Shown here one piece after another: positions 11,959 to 20,700 of a DNA stretch of 40,295 nucleotides (position 1 is its first letter; every line of letters starts with the position of its first letter). The stretch is from positions 1 to 40,295 of the forward strand of contig JAILFT010000064.1 in assembly GCA_024697425.1 (NCBI GenBank). The letters are read 5' to 3'. The position numbers were made by a program, and so were the translations under genes. The notes beneath the pieces were generated by a model, which saw nothing but the letters and a program-made list of their open reading frames with translations, was not told the origin of the DNA and searched no databases. The DNA is from Butyrivibrio sp. (GTDB taxonomy: Bacteria > Bacillota > Clostridia > Lachnospirales > Lachnospiraceae).

Positions 11959-13650
11959 TTATTTTTGAACAGAATATGGAATGTGTATGATCACCGATGC
12001 TCCGCCTTGCGCCGGGTTTTCCAGGCTTAGAGCAAAGGAGTCTCCGTAAAGAAGCCTCATCCTGCGGATGCAGTTGGTGATACCGATGTGGTCTCCGTTG
12101 TCCTCAAGCTGTTCTCCGTTGTAGACCTTTTTAAGGAAGTCGCTCGGAAAGCCCTGTCCGTTGTCGGTGATGCACACACTAAGCCGTCCGTCCGCGGTTT
12201 TGCTGCAGACAAGGCCTATATGCAGGGCCTCGCCCCGGGCGGGAGACGCATGTTTGATGGTGTTTTCAATAAAAGTGATGAGAAGCAGCGGCGGTATGTC
12301 GGCCGAGAGCAGATCATCCGCTACATCCAGGTCATACTCCGTGCTGCGGGAAAGGCGCATGTTCTGTATGGCCAGGTAGTCACTGATGTGATCCAGCTCA
12401 TTTCCCAGGGGCACAAAGTCCTTGTCCGCCTGGAAAAGATATCTGAAGTACCTTGAGGTGAACTGCAGCATCTTCTGGGCAGCATCAAGATCCCCAAGGC
12501 TCACCATGCTGTCGATGGTGGTGAGGCAGTTTAAGTAGAAGTGAGGCTTTATCTGCTGCTGCAGGAAGTGGATCCTGAATTTGTTCTTATCAAGCTCTGC
12601 CTCGTACACATCGATTCTAAGCCTTGTGATCTCATGTATAAGGTTCTTAAACTGGTCGTTGATCTGGTTCAGCTCCTGAATCCTGGAATCCGTAAGTTCC
12701 AGCTCCGCGGCATCGTCTTCCTCAAGAGAACCCATGGTTTTGAGCCTTTCGGAAAAGAGCTTTATGGGGAGGATGACTTTTCTGTAGGTGAGAAGGATAT
12801 ATCCGCCCATGATAAAGCTCAGCATCAGAGCTGCCAGGAATACCAGAAACTGCAGTATGAACAAGGTTCCGTAATTTCCAAGGATCTGAGCATCTATTAA
12901 TAATGTAAAGGGCAGCCCCGATTCCTCCCCGGGGAAGGTGAGGCTGTCGTAGAGGCGCTTCTCAAAACCTGAAGGACGCGCTCCGGTCTGATAGAAGATG
13001 CCGCCGATGGGAGACTGGACTCTGATATTCCCGTGCTCTCCAAGATTTAGGGAGGACAGGGGAGAGAGCATGTCTTCTATGGAGACCATGGCTACAAAGG
13101 TCCTGTGCTTGTAGGTGATCAGATAGTAAAGGTAGGTTCTGCCGCGGATCTCCAGTGGAGCCCAGGAGGAATCCGGCGCGGAGCCGCCTTCTCTTTTCAC
13201 ATCGGAAGTGATCTTGGCCTTCACGGACTTGTAGGTGTCGTAGTCCAGTTTGAGCTCGGAGGCGTTAAAAAAGATATCACCTTCATCCCAGTAGAAGAAA
13301 TACTGGTACTCACTTCCTGTGGAATACTGCATGTCACTGACACGAAGCCGAAGGTCATTGCTGGCCTGCCTGAAGTCACCCATGTGCCCGGTGGACTTGA
13401 AGGAATCCAGGATGGGGTCATGGACCACGGTCCACTGTACAAAGTGCTTTATAGCCGAGAGCTTGTGCTCCAATTCAGTTTGATAGATGTTTACGGCGTT
13501 CTCCAGTGCCAGGTTGTTCTGCCTTCTGATCTCAGAAAAGGAAAACCAGCTCACCACCACGAAAAGGATCACTATGGGGATGGCCAACCACACGGTTTTG
13601 CTCAGAACCTGGATCACGGGATAGGACCGGGATCTCTTTGTATTATTCAT
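11959..13650 (-). CDS. YesM-type sensor histidine kinase
   Basis: The 563-residue membrane kinase has TM1 (about 19-36), a large extracytoplasmic sensor region (about 40-255, probably dCache-like), TM2 (about 262-285), a HAMP-like linker and a His_kinase domain of the YesM/LytS class. The phospho-accepting His370 lies in LQQQIKPHFYLN. The ATPase N-box is FIENTIKHA and the G-box is ITDNGQGFP. It would phosphorylate the response regulator encoded 13 bp downstream. The start codon lies only six bases after a TATAAT, and no properly spaced SD exists (GAAGG abuts the ATG), so the mRNA may be leaderless. Confidence 0.92.
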   Translation of the reverse strand: MNNTKRSRSYPVIQVLSKTVWLAIPIVILFVVVSWFSFSEIRRQNNLALENAVNIYQTELEHKLSAIKHFVQWTVVHDPILDSFKSTGHMGDFRQASNDLRLRVSDMQYSTGSEYQYFFYWDEGDIFFNASELKLDYDTYKSVKAKITSDVKREGGSAPDSSWAPLEIRGRTYLYYLITYKHRTFVAMVSIEDMLSPLSSLNLGEHGNIRVQSPIGGIFYQTGARPSGFEKRLYDSLTFPGEESGLPFTLLIDAQILGNYGTLFILQFLVFLAALMLSFIMGGYILLTYRKVILPIKLFSERLKTMGSLEEDDAAELELTDSRIQELNQINDQFKNLIHEITRLRIDVYEAELDKNKFRIHFLQQQIKPHFYLNCLTTIDSMVSLGDLDAAQKMLQFTSRYFRYLFQADKDFVPLGNELDHISDYLAIQNMRLSRSTEYDLDVADDLLSADIPPLLLITFIENTIKHASPARGEALHIGLVCSKTADGRLSVCITDNGQGFPSDFLKKVYNGEQLEDNGDHIGITNCIRRMRLLYGDSFALSLENPAQGGASVIIHIPYSVQK

Positions 13651-13656
13651 GCCTTC

Positions 13657-13662
13657 ATTATA
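13657..13662 (-). promoter_or_regulatory. -10 element of the yesMN-like operon
   Basis: Minus-strand TATAAT ends 6 nt before the ATG of the kinase (TATAAT-GAAGGC-ATG), which places the predicted transcription start at the start codon itself. The -35 is poor, consistent with weak or activated transcription. Confidence 0.5.
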
Positions 13663-13679
13663 TAGAAAAGATAAATTGT

Positions 13680-13740
13680 GTGCTATACATTTTGAGACCC
13701 TTGTCGGAAAAGTGCTAGGGGCAAAACAGAATTGTGCTAT
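13680..13740. promoter_or_regulatory. Three GTGCTA boxes in the yesMN-ABC divergent intergenic region
   Basis: GTGCTAT occurs at 13680-13686 and 13734-13740, and GTGCTAG at 13712-13718. The offsets of 32 and 22 bp are close to three and two DNA turns. Direct repeats in helical phase upstream of a target operon are the usual form of AraC-type activator sites, so these may be bound by the adjacent response regulator. Confidence 0.45.
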
Positions 13741-13746
13741 TTTTTC

Positions 13747-13778
13747 GTTTATGAAAAATTTATTATCATTTCATAAAC
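13747..13778. promoter_or_regulatory. Perfect 10-bp inverted repeat directly before the ABC permease SD
   Basis: GTTTATGAAA (13747-13756) and TTTCATAAAC (13769-13778) flank a 12-bp AT-rich centre and end 2 bp before AAGGAG. It could be an operator (32 bp across) or an mRNA leader hairpin affecting translation of the transporter. Confidence 0.55.
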
Positions 13779-13793
13779 ATAAGGAGCACACAG

Positions 13794-14702
13794 ATGAAAA
13801 ATAAAGCATTTGCCAATATAAAACGACATTATCAGCTGTACCTTCTGCTGCTTCCCTCGGCGATACTTCTTTTCTGCTTTGCCTATCTTCCCATGTTCGG
13901 AATAGTGATAGCCTTTCAGAAGTATTCACCTGCACTGGGAGTCATGGGCAGCAAGTTTGTGGGATTTGCAAATTTCCTACAGTTCTTCAGATCCTACCAG
14001 TTTGGGGTGACCATCAAGAATACACTTCTTCTGAGTATTTACAGCATTCTTGTGGGCTTTCCCCTTCCCATACTTCTGGCACTTATGTGCAATCAGATGA
14101 AGACAAAGATGTTCAAGAAGGTTTTCCAGGTGGTTACCTACCTTCCGCATTTCATCTCCACCATGGTAATGTGCGGTCTCATCCTGATCTTCCTTTCGCC
14201 TTCAAGCGGATTGTTCGCAAATCTTTTTAAGCTTTTTGGCGGAACTTTCCCGAACCTGATGGCCAGCGCATCAAGCTTCAAGCATGTGTATGTATGGAGT
14301 GACATCTGGCAGCATCTGGGCTGGGACTCCATCATATATCTTGCAGCACTTGCAGGAATAGATCCTACCTATTATGAGGCAGCAACTGTGGACGGAGCCA
14401 CCACTTTGCAGAAAATCCGTTTCATCGATATCCCTATGATCCTTCCCACTGCGGTGGTGCTCCTGATCCTCAGAGCCGGCAGTATCTTGGGCATAGGCTT
14501 CGAGAAGGTATTCCTTCTCCAGAACGTTCAGAACATCATGAGCAGTGAGATCATCTCCACCTACGTTTACAAAATGGGTATGCAGAGCATGCAGTATTCC
14601 CTCTCTACTGCGATAGGTCTTTTCAATACGGTGGTTAACGTGATAGTGCTTCTTGCAGTAAATATCATAGCCAGGAAATTTACGGACAACAGTCTGTTTT
14701 AA
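13794..14702 (+). CDS. Carbohydrate ABC transporter permease, LplB type
   Basis: This 302-residue permease has six predicted membrane helices. It has the LplB-type N terminus (YQLYLLLLPSAILLFCFAYLPMFGIVIAFQKYSP) and the cytoplasmic EAA loop YYEAATVDGATTLQKIRFIDIPMILPT that contacts the ATPase. It forms the membrane channel with the second permease encoded 12 bp downstream. Such transporters import oligosaccharides or their derivatives. No ATPase gene is present, so a shared MsmX-like ATPase elsewhere is expected. The SD AAGGAG lies 7 bases before the ATG. A divergent YesMN system indicates regulation by it. Confidence 0.93.
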   Translation: MKNKAFANIKRHYQLYLLLLPSAILLFCFAYLPMFGIVIAFQKYSPALGVMGSKFVGFANFLQFFRSYQFGVTIKNTLLLSIYSILVGFPLPILLALMCNQMKTKMFKKVFQVVTYLPHFISTMVMCGLILIFLSPSSGLFANLFKLFGGTFPNLMASASSFKHVYVWSDIWQHLGWDSIIYLAALAGIDPTYYEAATVDGATTLQKIRFIDIPMILPTAVVLLILRAGSILGIGFEKVFLLQNVQNIMSSEIISTYVYKMGMQSMQYSLSTAIGLFNTVVNVIVLLAVNIIARKFTDNSLF

Positions 14703-14714
14703 CGGGAGAAACCA

Positions 14715-15608
14715 ATGAACGGGAAAAAGAAACAGCAATTTACCCAGGATACTGTGGTAAACATCATATTTCATATAATTGCCATCCTTATGATCCTCAT
14801 GGTCATATATCCACTCTGGTTTGTCATCATCGCCAGTTTCAGTAATCCGGCGGATGTGGCCAGCGGTAAGGTCTGGATTTGGCCCAAGACCCTTGATGTA
14901 AGAGGATATCAGAAGCTTTTTGAGCAGAGACAGATCTGGAAGAGCTATCTGAATACCATTATCTATACCGTAGTCGGCACGGCGATTGCTCTTTTTGTGA
15001 ATATAACAGCCGGCTACGCCATGTCCAGAAAGGACTTGCCCGGTAGAAAATGGATCAACGTTTTCTATGTAATCCCCATGTTTGTCAGCGGAGGTCTCAT
15101 ACCTACCTATCTCGTTGTCAAACAGTTTGGCCTCCTGGATAGCTTTCTGGTAATGGTCCTGCCCTTTGCGGTATCCACTTACAACATTATTGTGGCCAGA
15201 ACCTTCTTCCAGAGCTCCCTTCCGGAGTCTCTGTGGGAGGCGGCTCAGATTGACGGCTGCAGTACCTTAAGATACTTCATTCAGTTTGCCGTGCCTCTTT
15301 CAAAGGCGGTCATCGCGGTGGTTGGCCTCTGGACGGCGGTGGGCCTTTGGAACTCCTGGTTCAATGCTCTTATCTATCTGCAGAGTGAGAACCTGATACC
15401 GCTGCAGCTTCTTTTGAGGAGAATTCTTATAGCAAACGAGTCGCTGCTTGGGGCAGCCACAGGAACCATGGCTCAGGAGCTGAGGCAGCTCTCTGACATG
15501 ATGAAGTACGGATCAATTGTGATTTCTACATTGCCGATCATGATGCTCTATCCTTTCCTTCAGAAATATTTCAATCAGGGCGTCATGATAGGAGCAGTGA
15601 AGGGATAA
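14715..15608 (+). CDS. Carbohydrate ABC transporter permease, LplC/YtcP type
   Basis: The 297-residue second permease has six membrane helices and the EAA motif SLWEAAQIDGCSTLRYFIQFAVPLSKA. It ends with the PFLQKYFNQGVMIGAVKG signature typical of the YtcP/LplC subfamily. It pairs with the preceding permease as a heterodimer. The SD GGGAG is 8 bases before the ATG, and the 12-bp spacing shows co-transcription. Confidence 0.93.
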   Translation: MNGKKKQQFTQDTVVNIIFHIIAILMILMVIYPLWFVIIASFSNPADVASGKVWIWPKTLDVRGYQKLFEQRQIWKSYLNTIIYTVVGTAIALFVNITAGYAMSRKDLPGRKWINVFYVIPMFVSGGLIPTYLVVKQFGLLDSFLVMVLPFAVSTYNIIVARTFFQSSLPESLWEAAQIDGCSTLRYFIQFAVPLSKAVIAVVGLWTAVGLWNSWFNALIYLQSENLIPLQLLLRRILIANESLLGAATGTMAQELRQLSDMMKYGSIVISTLPIMMLYPFLQKYFNQGVMIGAVKG

Positions 15609-15646
15609 ATAGTTTAAAATTATATCAATGTAAAAGGAGAGAGAAA

Positions 15647-17269
15647 ATGCAGAAAAAGTTTAGTTTGGCAGCAGGCGTATTGGCACTGACAGTTGCTCTT
15701 GTCGGATGCGGCAGCGCAGCAGAGACTGCACCCGCAGCTTCAAATGATGCGGCAGCACCCGCAGCAACAACCACAGAAGCAGCACCCGCGGCAGATACAG
15801 CCGATGCAGGTGCAGCAGGCTACGAAGTTGCTACAGTAAGATGGGCAGACTGGGGTGAGGACTATCACACAGGATTCCCGGATCAGGCAGCAGCTGAGGC
15901 CGGCATTACAGTAACCTGGGATACAATCCTTAACTCAGACTGGGCAGACAAGAAGGCAGTTCTTCTTGCAGGCGGCGATCTTCCCGATGCTTTCATGGGA
16001 TCCATCTGCTTCTCAGAGTCTGACATCCTGACAAACCAGGGTTCATTCATCGCCATCGATGATTATATTGACGAGTACATGCCTAACTTCAAGGCTATCA
16101 TCGATTCCGATCCCACAATGAAGGCTCTTGCAACTTCAGCAGACGGCCACATCTATGGCCTTCCTTCAAAGAAGCCCTGCAGACCTATCGTTGCAAACCA
16201 GATGTTCATCAACAAGCAGTGGCTTGATAACCTGGGACTTTCAGTTCCCACAACCTACAAGGAGTTCGAGGATGTTCTTCAGGCATTCAAGGATAACGAT
16301 GCCAACGGAAACGGCGATCCTAATGATGAGATTCCTTTCGGACAGGGCTATGCTGATTCAGTTATGTTCTTCTGCCTGCCATTCGGAACAACCATCGGTG
16401 CAGACGGCACTTACATGATGGCAATCCAGAACGGACAGCCCGTTTACCTTCCTGTAACAGACGGCTACAAGGAAGGACTTAAGTGGATGAATGAGTGCTA
16501 TGCTAAGGGCCTCATCGATCCCGAGCTCTTCACAGAAGATTCTTCCATGCGTGATGCAAAGCTCATGAGCGAGACACCTATCGTAGGCGCAGCTCCCGGC
16601 TGGACAGCAGATTCAACCTTCGGTGCTAACTCAGGCCAGTACGTTGCACTTCCCGCTCTTGCAGGTCCCGATGGACAGCAGTACATCTCATCTGACCCTG
16701 AGCACTGGAACTACAGCAGATATGAGTTCGTTGTTACATCAAGCTGTGAGAATCCCGGTCCCCTTCTTGCATGGGCTGACAAGTTCTACACAGAAGATGC
16801 TTCAATCCAGAACTTCTACGGTTCATTTGGTGTAGCTATCGAGAAGGACGAGGCAGCAGGTACTTACACAGTTCTTGCACCCAAGGATGGCAACTCTGCA
16901 GATACTTTTGCATGGATCAGCTCACTTCGTGACTTTGGCCCCAAGTATGTAGCAGACGGCTTCAACAGTAAGGTTACATATGCAGCTGAGAACGGCGATG
17001 CTTCCAAGCTCGCTCTTGATACAGAGCTCAGCAAGTATGCAAAAGAGGCATATCCTAACGTTAGTTACACTCCCGATCAGCTGAGCACACTGGCAACACT
17101 GTTCACAGATCTTGATGCTTATGTAACAGCTAACCAGGCTACATGGGTAACTGAGGGCGGCATCGACGATCAGTGGGATAACTACAAGCAGACACTGGAG
17201 GCTATGGGCTACAACGACTTCATCGCAATCCAGCAGGATGCTTACAACACATATCAGTCCAACAAGTAA
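15647..17269 (+). CDS. Extracellular solute-binding lipoprotein of the sugar ABC transporter
   Basis: The 540-residue protein has a lipoprotein signal with lipobox LVGC (Cys21). An Ala/Thr/Pro-rich spacer (about 22-55) leads to a large family-1 type sugar-binding domain of the LipO/YtcQ size class. Visible features are DLPDAFMG near 110, the calcium-loop-like DNDANGNGDPNDEIPFG (about 215-231) and several Trp residues suited to stacking on sugars. It would be tethered to the outer membrane face by lipid, delivering oligosaccharide to the two permeases. Codon use is highly biased (gca, aca), fitting the excess of binding protein over permeases. SD AGGAGAGAG precedes the ATG. Confidence 0.94.
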   Translation: MQKKFSLAAGVLALTVALVGCGSAAETAPAASNDAAAPAATTTEAAPAADTADAGAAGYEVATVRWADWGEDYHTGFPDQAAAEAGITVTWDTILNSDWADKKAVLLAGGDLPDAFMGSICFSESDILTNQGSFIAIDDYIDEYMPNFKAIIDSDPTMKALATSADGHIYGLPSKKPCRPIVANQMFINKQWLDNLGLSVPTTYKEFEDVLQAFKDNDANGNGDPNDEIPFGQGYADSVMFFCLPFGTTIGADGTYMMAIQNGQPVYLPVTDGYKEGLKWMNECYAKGLIDPELFTEDSSMRDAKLMSETPIVGAAPGWTADSTFGANSGQYVALPALAGPDGQQYISSDPEHWNYSRYEFVVTSSCENPGPLLAWADKFYTEDASIQNFYGSFGVAIEKDEAAGTYTVLAPKDGNSADTFAWISSLRDFGPKYVADGFNSKVTYAAENGDASKLALDTELSKYAKEAYPNVSYTPDQLSTLATLFTDLDAYVTANQATWVTEGGIDDQWDNYKQTLEAMGYNDFIAIQQDAYNTYQSNK

Positions 17270-17300
17270 TCCTTTGGATTTATAAAAGGAAAGAGAATAG

Positions 17301-17352
17301 AGGGAGCGCTGTGTTTTCGGGGAAACACGGCGCTCTCTTTATTTTTATTTTA
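17301..17352 (+). terminator. Strong intrinsic terminator of the ABC transporter operon
   Basis: GAGCGCTGTGTTT (17304-17316) pairs with AAACACGGCGCTC (17323-17335) with one wobble. The stem extends outward by AGG/TCT, and a T-rich tract TTTATTTTTATTTT follows. Confidence 0.92.
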
Positions 17353-17380: not shown

Positions 17381-17480
17381 TTGACACGCTAACATGTACA
17401 ATATTAAACTTAAATTTACCACCCGCTTTAACGCTTAAAAGCGATAACGGTACAATGCGTTGAAAGTACAATGCGTTGAA
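17381..17480 (+). promoter_or_regulatory. Control region of the I9-like/subtilase/cohesin operon with tandem 16-bp repeats
   Basis: TTGACA (17381-17386) is a perfect -35; possible -10s are TATTAA (15-bp spacer) or TAAACT (18-bp spacer). Downstream, GTACAATGCGTTGAA is repeated exactly at 17450-17464 and 17466-17480 (16-bp period). A partial copy, TGTACAAT, lies at 17395-17402. The tandem units could be regulator sites in the leader or duplicated TACAAT -10 elements. Confidence 0.5.
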
Positions 17481-17512: not shown

Positions 17513-17767
17513 ATGAGAAGAATCGATTATGGCAGCGCGCCGGTTCGGGCGTACATTGTATTTTCGGCAGATACGGCTATCGAGGACGGTGTTAAGGCAG
17601 TTGAGAGTGAGGTTCTTGGAGGGGGGAAGCTTGATGTCTCCAGAATCGACAACAGTGGGCATGCTGTTGTCGCAAGAATCAGCGGGGAGCTCGTTGAGGG
17701 GATACAACAGCTGCCGGTTGTGAGTCGCATCAAGATTGAGATGCCTGCAAGACCTACTAAAAACTAG
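17513..17767 (+). CDS. Free-standing I9-like (subtilisin propeptide-like) small protein
   Basis: An 84-residue protein starting at ATG 17513, which has GGAG 7 bases upstream; the ORF-track start at 17480 has none. Its order of elements matches subtilisin propeptides (inhibitor family I9). A first strand AYIVFS is followed by a helix, then a GGGKLDV strand as in the propeptide GGKV turn, then GHAVVARISGELVEGIQQLPVVSRIKIEM. That last stretch mirrors the usual strand, helix, P-x-V-x-x-I/V-E end. There is no signal peptide, so it should stay in the cytoplasm. It sits 17 bp upstream of a secreted subtilase that has its own propeptide. I infer an intracellular protease inhibitor or chaperone; the fold assignment is from pattern only. 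Confidence 0.72.
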   Translation: MRRIDYGSAPVRAYIVFSADTAIEDGVKAVESEVLGGGKLDVSRIDNSGHAVVARISGELVEGIQQLPVVSRIKIEMPARPTKN

Positions 17768-17784: not shown

Positions 17785-20700
17785 ATGAAAAGAAGAGTGT
17801 GCCCTAAAAAGGCACTGGCTGTGATCCTGAGTGCGGCAATGGCTTTTTCACCCGCCATCACAGCTTCGGCAACGGCATCCGAGACTTTGACTGCGGAGAC
17901 AGCAGAAGTCAAAGAAGCTGAGGAAACTAAGGAAGCCGGCGAAGAGGCAGGCGAGGAAGTTACTTCCGAGGAAAAAGAGTCCGAGCAGGAAACTGCGGAA
18001 GAGACCAAGGGAGAATCAGAGGAGGCTGCAGGCTCAGAAGAGGCCAAGGAAGCGGCTGATGAAACCAAAGAGTCAGAGGACGAAGTCGACGAGGCTGCCA
18101 AAGAGGGAGAACTTGTTTTTGAGAAGGTTGACCCTGCTGAGGAAGAACTTGAGATTTCAGGTGCCAAGGATCTGGTTGAAGGAGAAGCAGCAGACTTCTC
18201 GGTCGCTACTCCCGATCCCGACGAGCAGACTCGTGTCATCATCGTAATGGAGGGTGACAGTGTACTTGATGCCGGTTTTGACACAGAGACACTTGCCGAG
18301 AATGATGCAGCTATGAATATGTCTGAGAACATCATTGCAGAGCAGGGGGTTCAGGTAGAAAAGATCGAAGCACAGGCTCTTGAAGGAGCTGAGCTCGATG
18401 TAAATTATAATCTCTCAATCCTTACAAATGCTGTATCAGCAGATGTTGCCTTTAAGGATATTGAGAGCATCGCAGATGTAGACGGAGTTGCAGCTGTATA
18501 TGTAGCTCAGAAGTATGAGCCTCAGGCTACAGATGCAGAGATCAACACCATTACAGCCGGCGATATGGTTGGAAGCTATGACACCTGGACAACAGGTTAC
18601 ACAGGTGCAGGCACAAGAATTGCAGTCATCGATACAGGTATCGATGCAGATCATCCTTCTTTTGACGGTGGAGCTTTTGATGCTCACCTTCAGGAGACAG
18701 CAGAAAAGGCAGGAAAGACAGTTGCTGATTACACCCTCCTTGATGAGAGCGAGATCGCAGCAGTTCTCCCCAACCTCAATGCAACCCAGAGAAACGGCGG
18801 CATTTCAGCTTCCGATCTGTATCTTAGTGAGAAGATCCCCTTCGCATTCAACTATGTAGACAAGGATCTTGATATAACTCATGCAAATGACAAGGAAGGC
18901 GACCACGGTACACACGTATCAGGTATCGCAACAGCCAACACTTATGTACCCAGTGCTGCATCCGAGACAGGATATGCAAGACAGGAACTTGGTGTTGTAG
19001 GTGTTGCTCCCGATGCACAGCTGATCACCATGAAGGTATTCGGAAAAGGCGGCGGAGCATATTCCGATGACTACATGGCAGCTATTGAGGATGCCCTTCT
19101 TCTTAAAGCTGACGTTGTAAACCTTTCTCTTGGTTCATCTGCAGCAGGATATTCCTCAGACGCAGAGGCTTACATCAATGATATTTTCAAGAAGCTTGAG
19201 GGAACAGGCACTGTTGTTTCTATTTCTGCAGGTAACTCAGGAAGATTCGGTGATGACACAGCTGTTGGTGCCAACCTCAGCTGGGATGTAAACATGGATA
19301 CCATCGGTTCTCCCGGATCCTACTACAATGCATTCACAGTTGCCAGCGCTGTTAACAGCGGTTTTACAGGAAACTACCTTGCTACAACAGACGGCAAGAA
19401 TATCTACTATACAGACGGTAATGATACACTGGCTCCTAAGTTCTATACTCTGGACGTATCTGCTGACGGTAAGGGAACAGAATATCCTTTCGTATTCATC
19501 AACGGTAAGGGCGCTGCTTCCGATTACGAAGCACTTGTTGATGAAAACGGAGAGAGCCTTGTAAAGGATAAGATCGTATTTGTACAGCGTGGTGAGCTGA
19601 CCTTCGGCGAGAAGCAGATGAACGCTGAGGCAGCAGGCGCTAAGGCTGTAGTTATTTACAACAATCAGCCCGGAACAATCTCCATGACTCTTCAGGGCAG
19701 CACAGCTGTTATCCCTGCTGTATCTGTAACTCTTGATGAGGGTCTTGGAGTAGCAGAGACTGCTACAGAGCAGATCAGTGAGAAGGCGTGCGCAGGTACT
19801 CTTACAGTTGTAGCAACACCTGCAACTAACTTTGAGGCAGCTGATGGTTACACCATGAGTGATTTCTCATCAGTCGGTGTTCCCGAAACTCTTGACCTTA
19901 AGCCTGAGATTACAGCTCCCGGCGGAAACATCTATTCCACAAGAGATGGCGGAACCTATGGAAACATGAGCGGAACTTCAATGGCTGCTCCTTCCATCGC
20001 AGGTCAGACAGCTCTTGTTGAGCAGTATATTAAGGAGAATGACCTTGCAGCAAAGACCGGACTTTCAGTTCGTAGCCTTGCTCAGGCACTTATCATGAGC
20101 ACAGCTGATCCTCTTACTACAGGCAATGATGCAAGTGCTCCCGAGTACTCACCCAGATCCCAGGGCGCAGGACTTGCAAACGTACATGATGCAGTAACAT
20201 CACCTTCATATGTTCTTGTTGGCGACAAGGCCGGCAACGATGGTAAGGTAAAGGTTGTTCTTGGAGACGATCCTTCAAGGAACGGCTCTTACAGCTTCTC
20301 ATTTGATGTATATAACCTTACAGATGAGCCTCAGTACTATGAGCTTGACTCAAGCGTCCTGACAGAGGAACTTATCCAGAACTATTTCATCATGTGTGAG
20401 TCCCACAAGCTCAGCCCTGAGGTTACTCTTACAGCAGATGACACAGCTCTTGTATATGACCTTAACTATGACGGAAGAGTAGACAAGAAAGACCGTAAGG
20501 TTCTTCTTCAGGTAGTAAACGGAAGCCTCGATCTCAACCTTGTATCCCAGAACGAGGACTATTTCGACTTCAATACAGACGGTATTGTAGATACTAAGGA
20601 CGTATATATCTTTGGTAAGCAGCTCAAGAAAAAAGATTCAGTGGTTGACCTTGGACGCAGAGTAATGCAGGTTAAGGATTCCACTAAGGTAAATGTTTCC

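Follow-up and report, generated by a model that had tools for sequence, protein, structure and literature searches.

An 84-residue protein (P0001), encoded directly upstream of a secreted subtilase in Butyrivibrio, is by sequence comparison a divergent relative of that protease's own I9-type propeptide, and it probably shields the cell interior from its neighbour, a role proposed by analogy with known protease safeguards. The window analysed here (40,295 nucleotides) is one contig of a Butyrivibrio genome (3.03 Mb) assembled from a metagenome, with 84.5% completeness and 6.6% contamination. The closest named relatives of this genome are Butyrivibrio sp. FCS014, which carries an orthologue of the P0001 gene, and MAG SIG346. 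For the proposal as a whole, in which a divergent propeptide duplicate is produced together with the subtilase and acts as a cytosolic inhibitor of prematurely folded enzyme, with the protease later docked at the surface, we estimate a probability of roughly 55%.

The small gene and its cassette

The gene for P0001 begins with ATG at 17513, ends with a stop codon at 17765-17767, is preceded by a GGAG ribosome site and lies 17 nt ahead of the subtilase start (17785). Protein searches of 79 Butyrivibrio genomes returned homologues in 10, the window included; of the nine others, two share 87-89% identity with P0001 and the rest approximately 32-48%. Profile searches of these genomes recovered exactly these ten (E 1e-29 to 3e-36), and outside Butyrivibrio a further homologue was found in a different genus belonging to the same family (G440, E 1.5e-27). 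No relatives were found among viral contigs or among plasmids. Comparison with the nearest orthologue gave dN 0.06 and dS 0.48 (0.06-0.07 and 0.48-0.55, respectively, across orthologues). The initial annotation had placed a gene at this position, and the reading frame, ribosome site, homologues and dN/dS together confirm that it is real and not a chance open reading frame. It could still be a decaying, functionless remnant of a duplicated pro-region, as its scattered occurrence, in 10 of the 20 protease-bearing genomes, and its variable C-terminal part might suggest. Such a remnant is very improbable, however, since a dN/dS of about 0.13 indicates purifying selection, and the frame is intact at all 11 loci and retained in two genera.

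Table 1. Features of the subtilase cassette and its upstream region (positions in the window)
Feature	Position	Strand	Basis
Terminator-like hairpin, separating the cassette from upstream transporter genes	17296..17343	+	Sequence
Promoter-like element, TTGACA-18-TAAACT, preceding the small gene	17381..17410	+	Similar boxes in several homologous loci
Conserved leader hairpin/palindrome, CGCTTTAACGCTTAAAAGCG	17424..17443	+	Single copy in genome
Gene of stand-alone I9-like protein P0001, 84 aa	17513..17767	+	Open reading frame and homologues
Secreted S8 subtilase, 1379 aa	17785..21924	+	Catalytic motifs D (VIDTGID), H (DHGTHVSG), S (GTSMAAP)
Sec-type signal peptide of subtilase, about residues 1-29	17785..17871	+	Read from sequence
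FEKVD box of subtilase pro-region	18118..18132	+	Sequence comparison
I9-type propeptide of subtilase, residues 146-247	18220..18525	+	Nearest sequence relative of P0001
Peptidase S8 domain	18604..20172	+	Domain search
PA domain, inserted in S8 domain	19522-19743	+	Domain search
Dockerin type I-like pair of calcium loops	20455..20622	+	Sequence; E 0.0019, below Pfam cut-off
Cohesin and fibronectin III protein with signal peptide, 266 aa	21924..22724	+	Pfam, AF2 model, PDB match

At all 11 loci the small gene directly precedes a subtilase gene of the same kind and shares its strand. Besides the features listed in Table 1, the subtilase contains an acidic stretch. In 7 of 10 orthologues its propeptide gives a weak Pfam Inhibitor_I9 match, the best at E 0.0093, and an hhalign comparison with 16 I9 propeptides taken from elsewhere in the phylum gives a strong one (97.5%, 6.6e-12). 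The protease had been described as exported and equipped with its own propeptide, which agrees with the signal peptide and I9-type propeptide found here. It had also been called dockerin-bearing; a pair of dockerin-like calcium loops is indeed visible, but at an E value (0.0019) that falls short of the Pfam cut-off.

A third gene, which overlaps the subtilase gene by one base (21924), comes next in every Butyrivibrio locus on a long enough contig. Cohesin (PF00963) was matched in 5 of 9 of its products (best 6.4e-5), fn3 was also present, and the best PDB match to an AF2 model was 2w1n, a cohesin-FN3 module (E 1.5e-8). One homologue apparently has choline-binding repeats, a wall anchor, in place of fn3; from its repeat-rich C-terminus it is presumed to be that of locus L050. 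With cohesin in the third-gene product and sub-threshold dockerin loops in the protease, the two have the makings of a cohesin-dockerin pair. The third-gene protein is thus the probable surface partner of the protease dockerin, and the protease is probably held at the cell surface. The genome paper on B. proteoclasticus B316 reported no scaffoldin or cohesin components (PMC2914790), so minimal pairs of a single cohesin and a one-dockerin protease may have been overlooked so far.

The three genes form a conserved unit, since the genes beyond them vary between genomes. Upstream, positions 11959-17269 hold a minus-strand sensor kinase, two ABC permeases and a substrate-binding lipoprotein; the ABC genes make up an ordinary sugar-type transporter that does not adjoin the cassette in another genome (G319, L052). 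As in the Spi/staphostatin type of organization, the small gene adjoins a secreted protease gene on the same strand behind one promoter-like site, an arrangement from which co-transcription of the small gene and the protease would be expected.

Just past the promoter-like site, a leader element (17424-17470) comprises CGCTTTAACGCTTAAAAGCG followed by a second, CGCTTTAAA-like copy. Its pattern occurs once per genome, upstream of the cassette, in 15 of the 16 main-clade Butyrivibrio genomes with the protease, and it is also retained in genomes that lack the small gene. The sole match away from the cassette (in G338) lies in an unrelated context and was taken as chance. Six stem pairs are kept, mostly through G-U changes and one through compensatory changes, which hints that the leader acts as RNA; no Rfam family matched it.

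Fold and sequence relations of the small protein

P0001 comprises strands at residues 11-17, 41-46, 51-56 and 70-76, helices at 23-33 and 58-65, and a tail at 77-84. An AF2 model of the protein alone (pLDDT 79.6) was re-aligned with VIA-align, whereby the eight top Z-scores (8.3-7.7) all belonged to subtilase propeptides, including those of pro-subtilisin E, BPN', PCSK9, EpiP and Tk-subtilisin; the stand-alone inhibitor POIA1 scored 6.8. The I9-like fold anticipated by the initial annotation was therefore obtained. Foldseek with the same model returned nothing below E 0.001, and its list mixed I9 propeptides with designed binders, MORF, NapD and ACT/HMA ferredoxin-like folds. The fold is common, and Z-score differences under 1 count as ties, so the modelled I9-like fold is supportive only and does not by itself decide the identity of P0001.

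Sequence comparison was used to settle this identity. A profile of the small proteins scored a mean of 15.8 bits against the ten adjacent propeptides, whereas 200 column-shuffled profiles scored 0.81 ± 0.99 (z 15); in an independent run, none of 300 shuffles scored as high. Against 16 distant I9 propeptides the same profile gave z 4.6, and hhalign of the small protein with the neighbouring propeptide gave P 2.8e-4. When whole genomes were searched in six frames, only the gene itself ranked above the adjacent propeptide (E 0.0017-0.061) in 6 of the 10 gene-bearing genomes (G000, G307, G312, G317, G319 and G321), and the profile also matched the propeptide of the same protease in two genomes without the small gene (G309 and G361). 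Most longer homologues open with an FE(K/E)VDG box, which resembles the FEKVD box of the subtilase and stands at a similar spacing from the domain; this is a weaker line of evidence, one of 300 shuffles scoring as high. Subtilase-like giants of 2544 and 2503 aa in another genus (G130; L088 5809-14989 and L089 520-8031 on the reversed strand) match the small-protein profile inside their long frames (E 8e-5 and 1.5e-4), and the first is preceded by a 509-aa secreted protein with a cohesin-like start.

The alignment of P0001 with subtilisin propeptides claimed from its residue pattern thus stands, both by fold and by sequence to the neighbour's propeptide. The high-probability match to Pfam Inhibitor_I9 (PF05922) that had been expected did not materialize: none of the 10 small-protein homologues was matched, even at E 10. 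No Pfam or NCBIfam family was found for P0001, and direct sequence searches of the PDB with P0001 or the profile gave nothing meaningful. With respect to family I9 (clan JC), a sequence relation to a subtilase propeptide is present and the curated PF05922 cut-off is not reached. Because Pfam does not recognise it, P0001 is classed, on these comparisons, as a divergent, I9-like relative of the neighbouring propeptide and not as a PF05922 member. The known stand-alone I9 proteins likewise lack significant sequence similarity (PMC6993865). On the simplest history, the small gene probably arose long ago by duplication of the pro-region of the adjacent protease.

The same comparisons bear on NapD, a signal-peptide-binding chaperone with the same ferredoxin-like fold, which is cytosolic, serves an exported enzyme and could not be separated from I9 by its re-alignment Z-score (7.7). 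One small-protein homologue gave a Pfam NapD match at E 0.059. NapD, however, acts on Tat signals, while the signal peptides of the protease are Sec-like; TatC was found in none of the 10 gene-bearing Butyrivibrio genomes, and at cut-off in only 3 of the 79 genomes of the genus. The small-protein profile scored near its shuffled versions against 12 NapD proteins (z 1.2, compared with z 15 for the adjacent propeptides; hhalign P 0.058). A NapD-type Tat chaperone was rejected on TatC absence and profile scores, and we give that reading very little credence.

The strongest invariants of the small proteins are a nearly invariant R-x-D-x-x-G-[HN] in the beta2-beta3 hairpin (P0001 residues 44-50; 17642-17662), a motif missing from the protease propeptides, so the small protein is not a plain propeptide mimic. 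The motif suggests a surface that the propeptide does not have, many regulators and RNA-binding domains share the fold, and the leader is private to the cassette; the small protein might accordingly control a different protease or act as a regulator, for example by binding the leader. Regulation through the leader is weakened by its persistence where the small gene is absent. Moreover, the small gene is never found apart from the subtilase, and its closest sequence relative is the neighbour's propeptide, which leaves a regulatory role or a different protease target quite improbable.

Distribution, location and proposed role

The protease was found in 20 of 79 Butyrivibrio genomes, and the small gene in 10 of these and in none of the 59 without the protease. 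The association has a hypergeometric probability of about 1e-7 with relatedness ignored, although the genomes are related and the counts therefore not independent. All ten upstream gaps in the protease-only genomes were read, and none encodes a homologue. On a tree of 21 proteases, presence of the small gene needs at least 3 changes (mean of shuffles, 7.3), which is compatible with early presence through one gain and later losses. Half of the protease-bearing genomes manage without the small gene, which counts against a protective role.

None of the 11 small-protein homologues has a signal peptide or hydrophobic N-terminal stretch by hydropathy, as had been claimed for P0001; the same absence of an export signal characterizes the Spi/staphostatin type, and a cytosolic location is predicted. 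The description of the small protein as free-standing holds for P0001 with its 84 residues, but not for the five homologues with a C-terminal membrane helix (L046, 7252-7995; L048; L050; L051; and L085, from G440), in which a long acidic Ser/Glu-rich linker precedes the helix. Since signal peptides are absent, the simplest reading is that these five would be tail-anchored with the domain inside. Their helix ends are basic, which under the positive-inside rule would fit the opposite orientation, with the N-terminus outside. The helix varies among close relatives, whereas the I9-like domain is retained.

In the proposed mechanism, P0001 would be a free-standing, divergent copy of the adjacent subtilase's I9 propeptide, made first from a shared transcript and, lacking an export signal, kept within the cell. 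Subtilase molecules that fold before export would be bound by it, its sheet packing against the catalytic domain and its C-terminal tail occupying the active site, and the cytosol would thereby be spared from premature protease. The exported protease would be matured by its own propeptide and would then dock at the surface, through its dockerin, on the cohesin protein of the third gene. That the small protein may bind and block the S8 domain in the cell is suggested by its relation to the propeptide, by the finding that a subtilase propeptide supplied as a separate protein inhibits its own protease (PMC10580911), and by the precedent of Spi, a propeptide analogue, and the staphostatins. Both are co-transcribed with secreted proteases, and their presumed task is to restrain enzyme that becomes active too early, while still in the cytoplasm (PMC2873492, PMC3462683).

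Alternatively, the small protein might not guard the cytosol but help with folding or export, as an external chaperone that attaches to the protease inside the cell or at the membrane and keeps it export-competent or assists its folding. Propeptides are folding chaperones, five homologues are membrane-tethered, and a helper role would overlap with inhibition. Sec requires an unfolded substrate, so folding ahead of export would block it. The Aeromonas subtilase ASP depends on a separately encoded partner, ORF2, which has its C-terminus at the catalytic site and is also an inhibitor (PMC5638518); ASP has no propeptide, however, whereas the Butyrivibrio protease has one, and half of its relatives are without the small gene. 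A helper is therefore unlikely overall. Among the roles offered by the initial annotation, a cytosolic folding chaperone in particular is less likely, because the Sec-type signal demands unfolded export and the protease has a propeptide of its own for folding.

A more specific form of the protective proposal is advanced tentatively, the odds being somewhat against it: a propeptide duplicate that is never exported, and in some lineages is tethered by a C-terminal helix to the inner face of the membrane, would act as a checkpoint and disarm protease that folds before passing the translocon. It would then be the first bacterial I9 inhibitor that stands alone, doing for a serine protease what Spi and the staphostatins do for cysteine proteases. 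More generally, a separate propeptide copy retained within the cell would show that subtilase propeptides can split off into immunity proteins in bacteria as well, and would yield a specific inhibitor, itself a small protein, for a rumen protease that is probably anchored at the surface.

Comparison with known systems

To our knowledge, detailed understanding of how secreted bacterial proteases are restrained before export is confined to a few cysteine proteases. No report of a bacterial stand-alone I9 safeguard for a secreted subtilase was found in the open-access literature. Two overlapping samples of the phylum, of about 300 and about 250 genomes, contained no Pfam I9 match in an open frame shorter than 253 aa, and nearly all frames with a match were far longer; Pfam-visible free-standing I9 proteins are thus at least rare in the phylum, and divergent ones like P0001 would escape such a search.

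Spi (the inhibitor of SpeB in Streptococcus pyogenes) and the staphostatins resemble the Butyrivibrio protein in being small, encoded beside a secreted protease and proposed as cytoplasmic safeguards. They differ in that their targets are cysteine proteases (C10/C47) and their folds are unrelated; their function is backed by experiments, whereas we infer that of the Butyrivibrio protein. NapD has the same fold, is cytosolic and serves an exported enzyme, but the gene-bearing Butyrivibrio genomes have no Tat system, and the sequence relation to NapD does not rise clearly above shuffled profiles.

ORF2, the partner of the Aeromonas sobria subtilase ASP, is likewise bacterial; it is encoded separately within the operon of its protease and exerts its effect at the active site (PMC5638518). 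Unlike ORF2, which substitutes for a propeptide that ASP lacks, the Butyrivibrio protein accompanies a protease that keeps its propeptide too. The small, free subtilase-propeptide folds nearest in kind are POIA1, yeast proteinase B inhibitor 2, Arabidopsis SPI-1, TgMIC5 and Plasmodium SUB1-ProM. A 2020 paper counted three well-characterised stand-alone MEROPS I9 proteins (from Pleurotus, yeast and Arabidopsis) together with TgMIC5 and SUB1-ProM, the last a stand-alone propeptide mimic beside subtilase genes that inhibits SUB1 (PMC6993865). All of these are eukaryotic, with inhibition measured, and SUB1-ProM has a secretory signal; the Butyrivibrio protein, by contrast, is bacterial, has no signal peptide and is related in sequence to its neighbour's propeptide.
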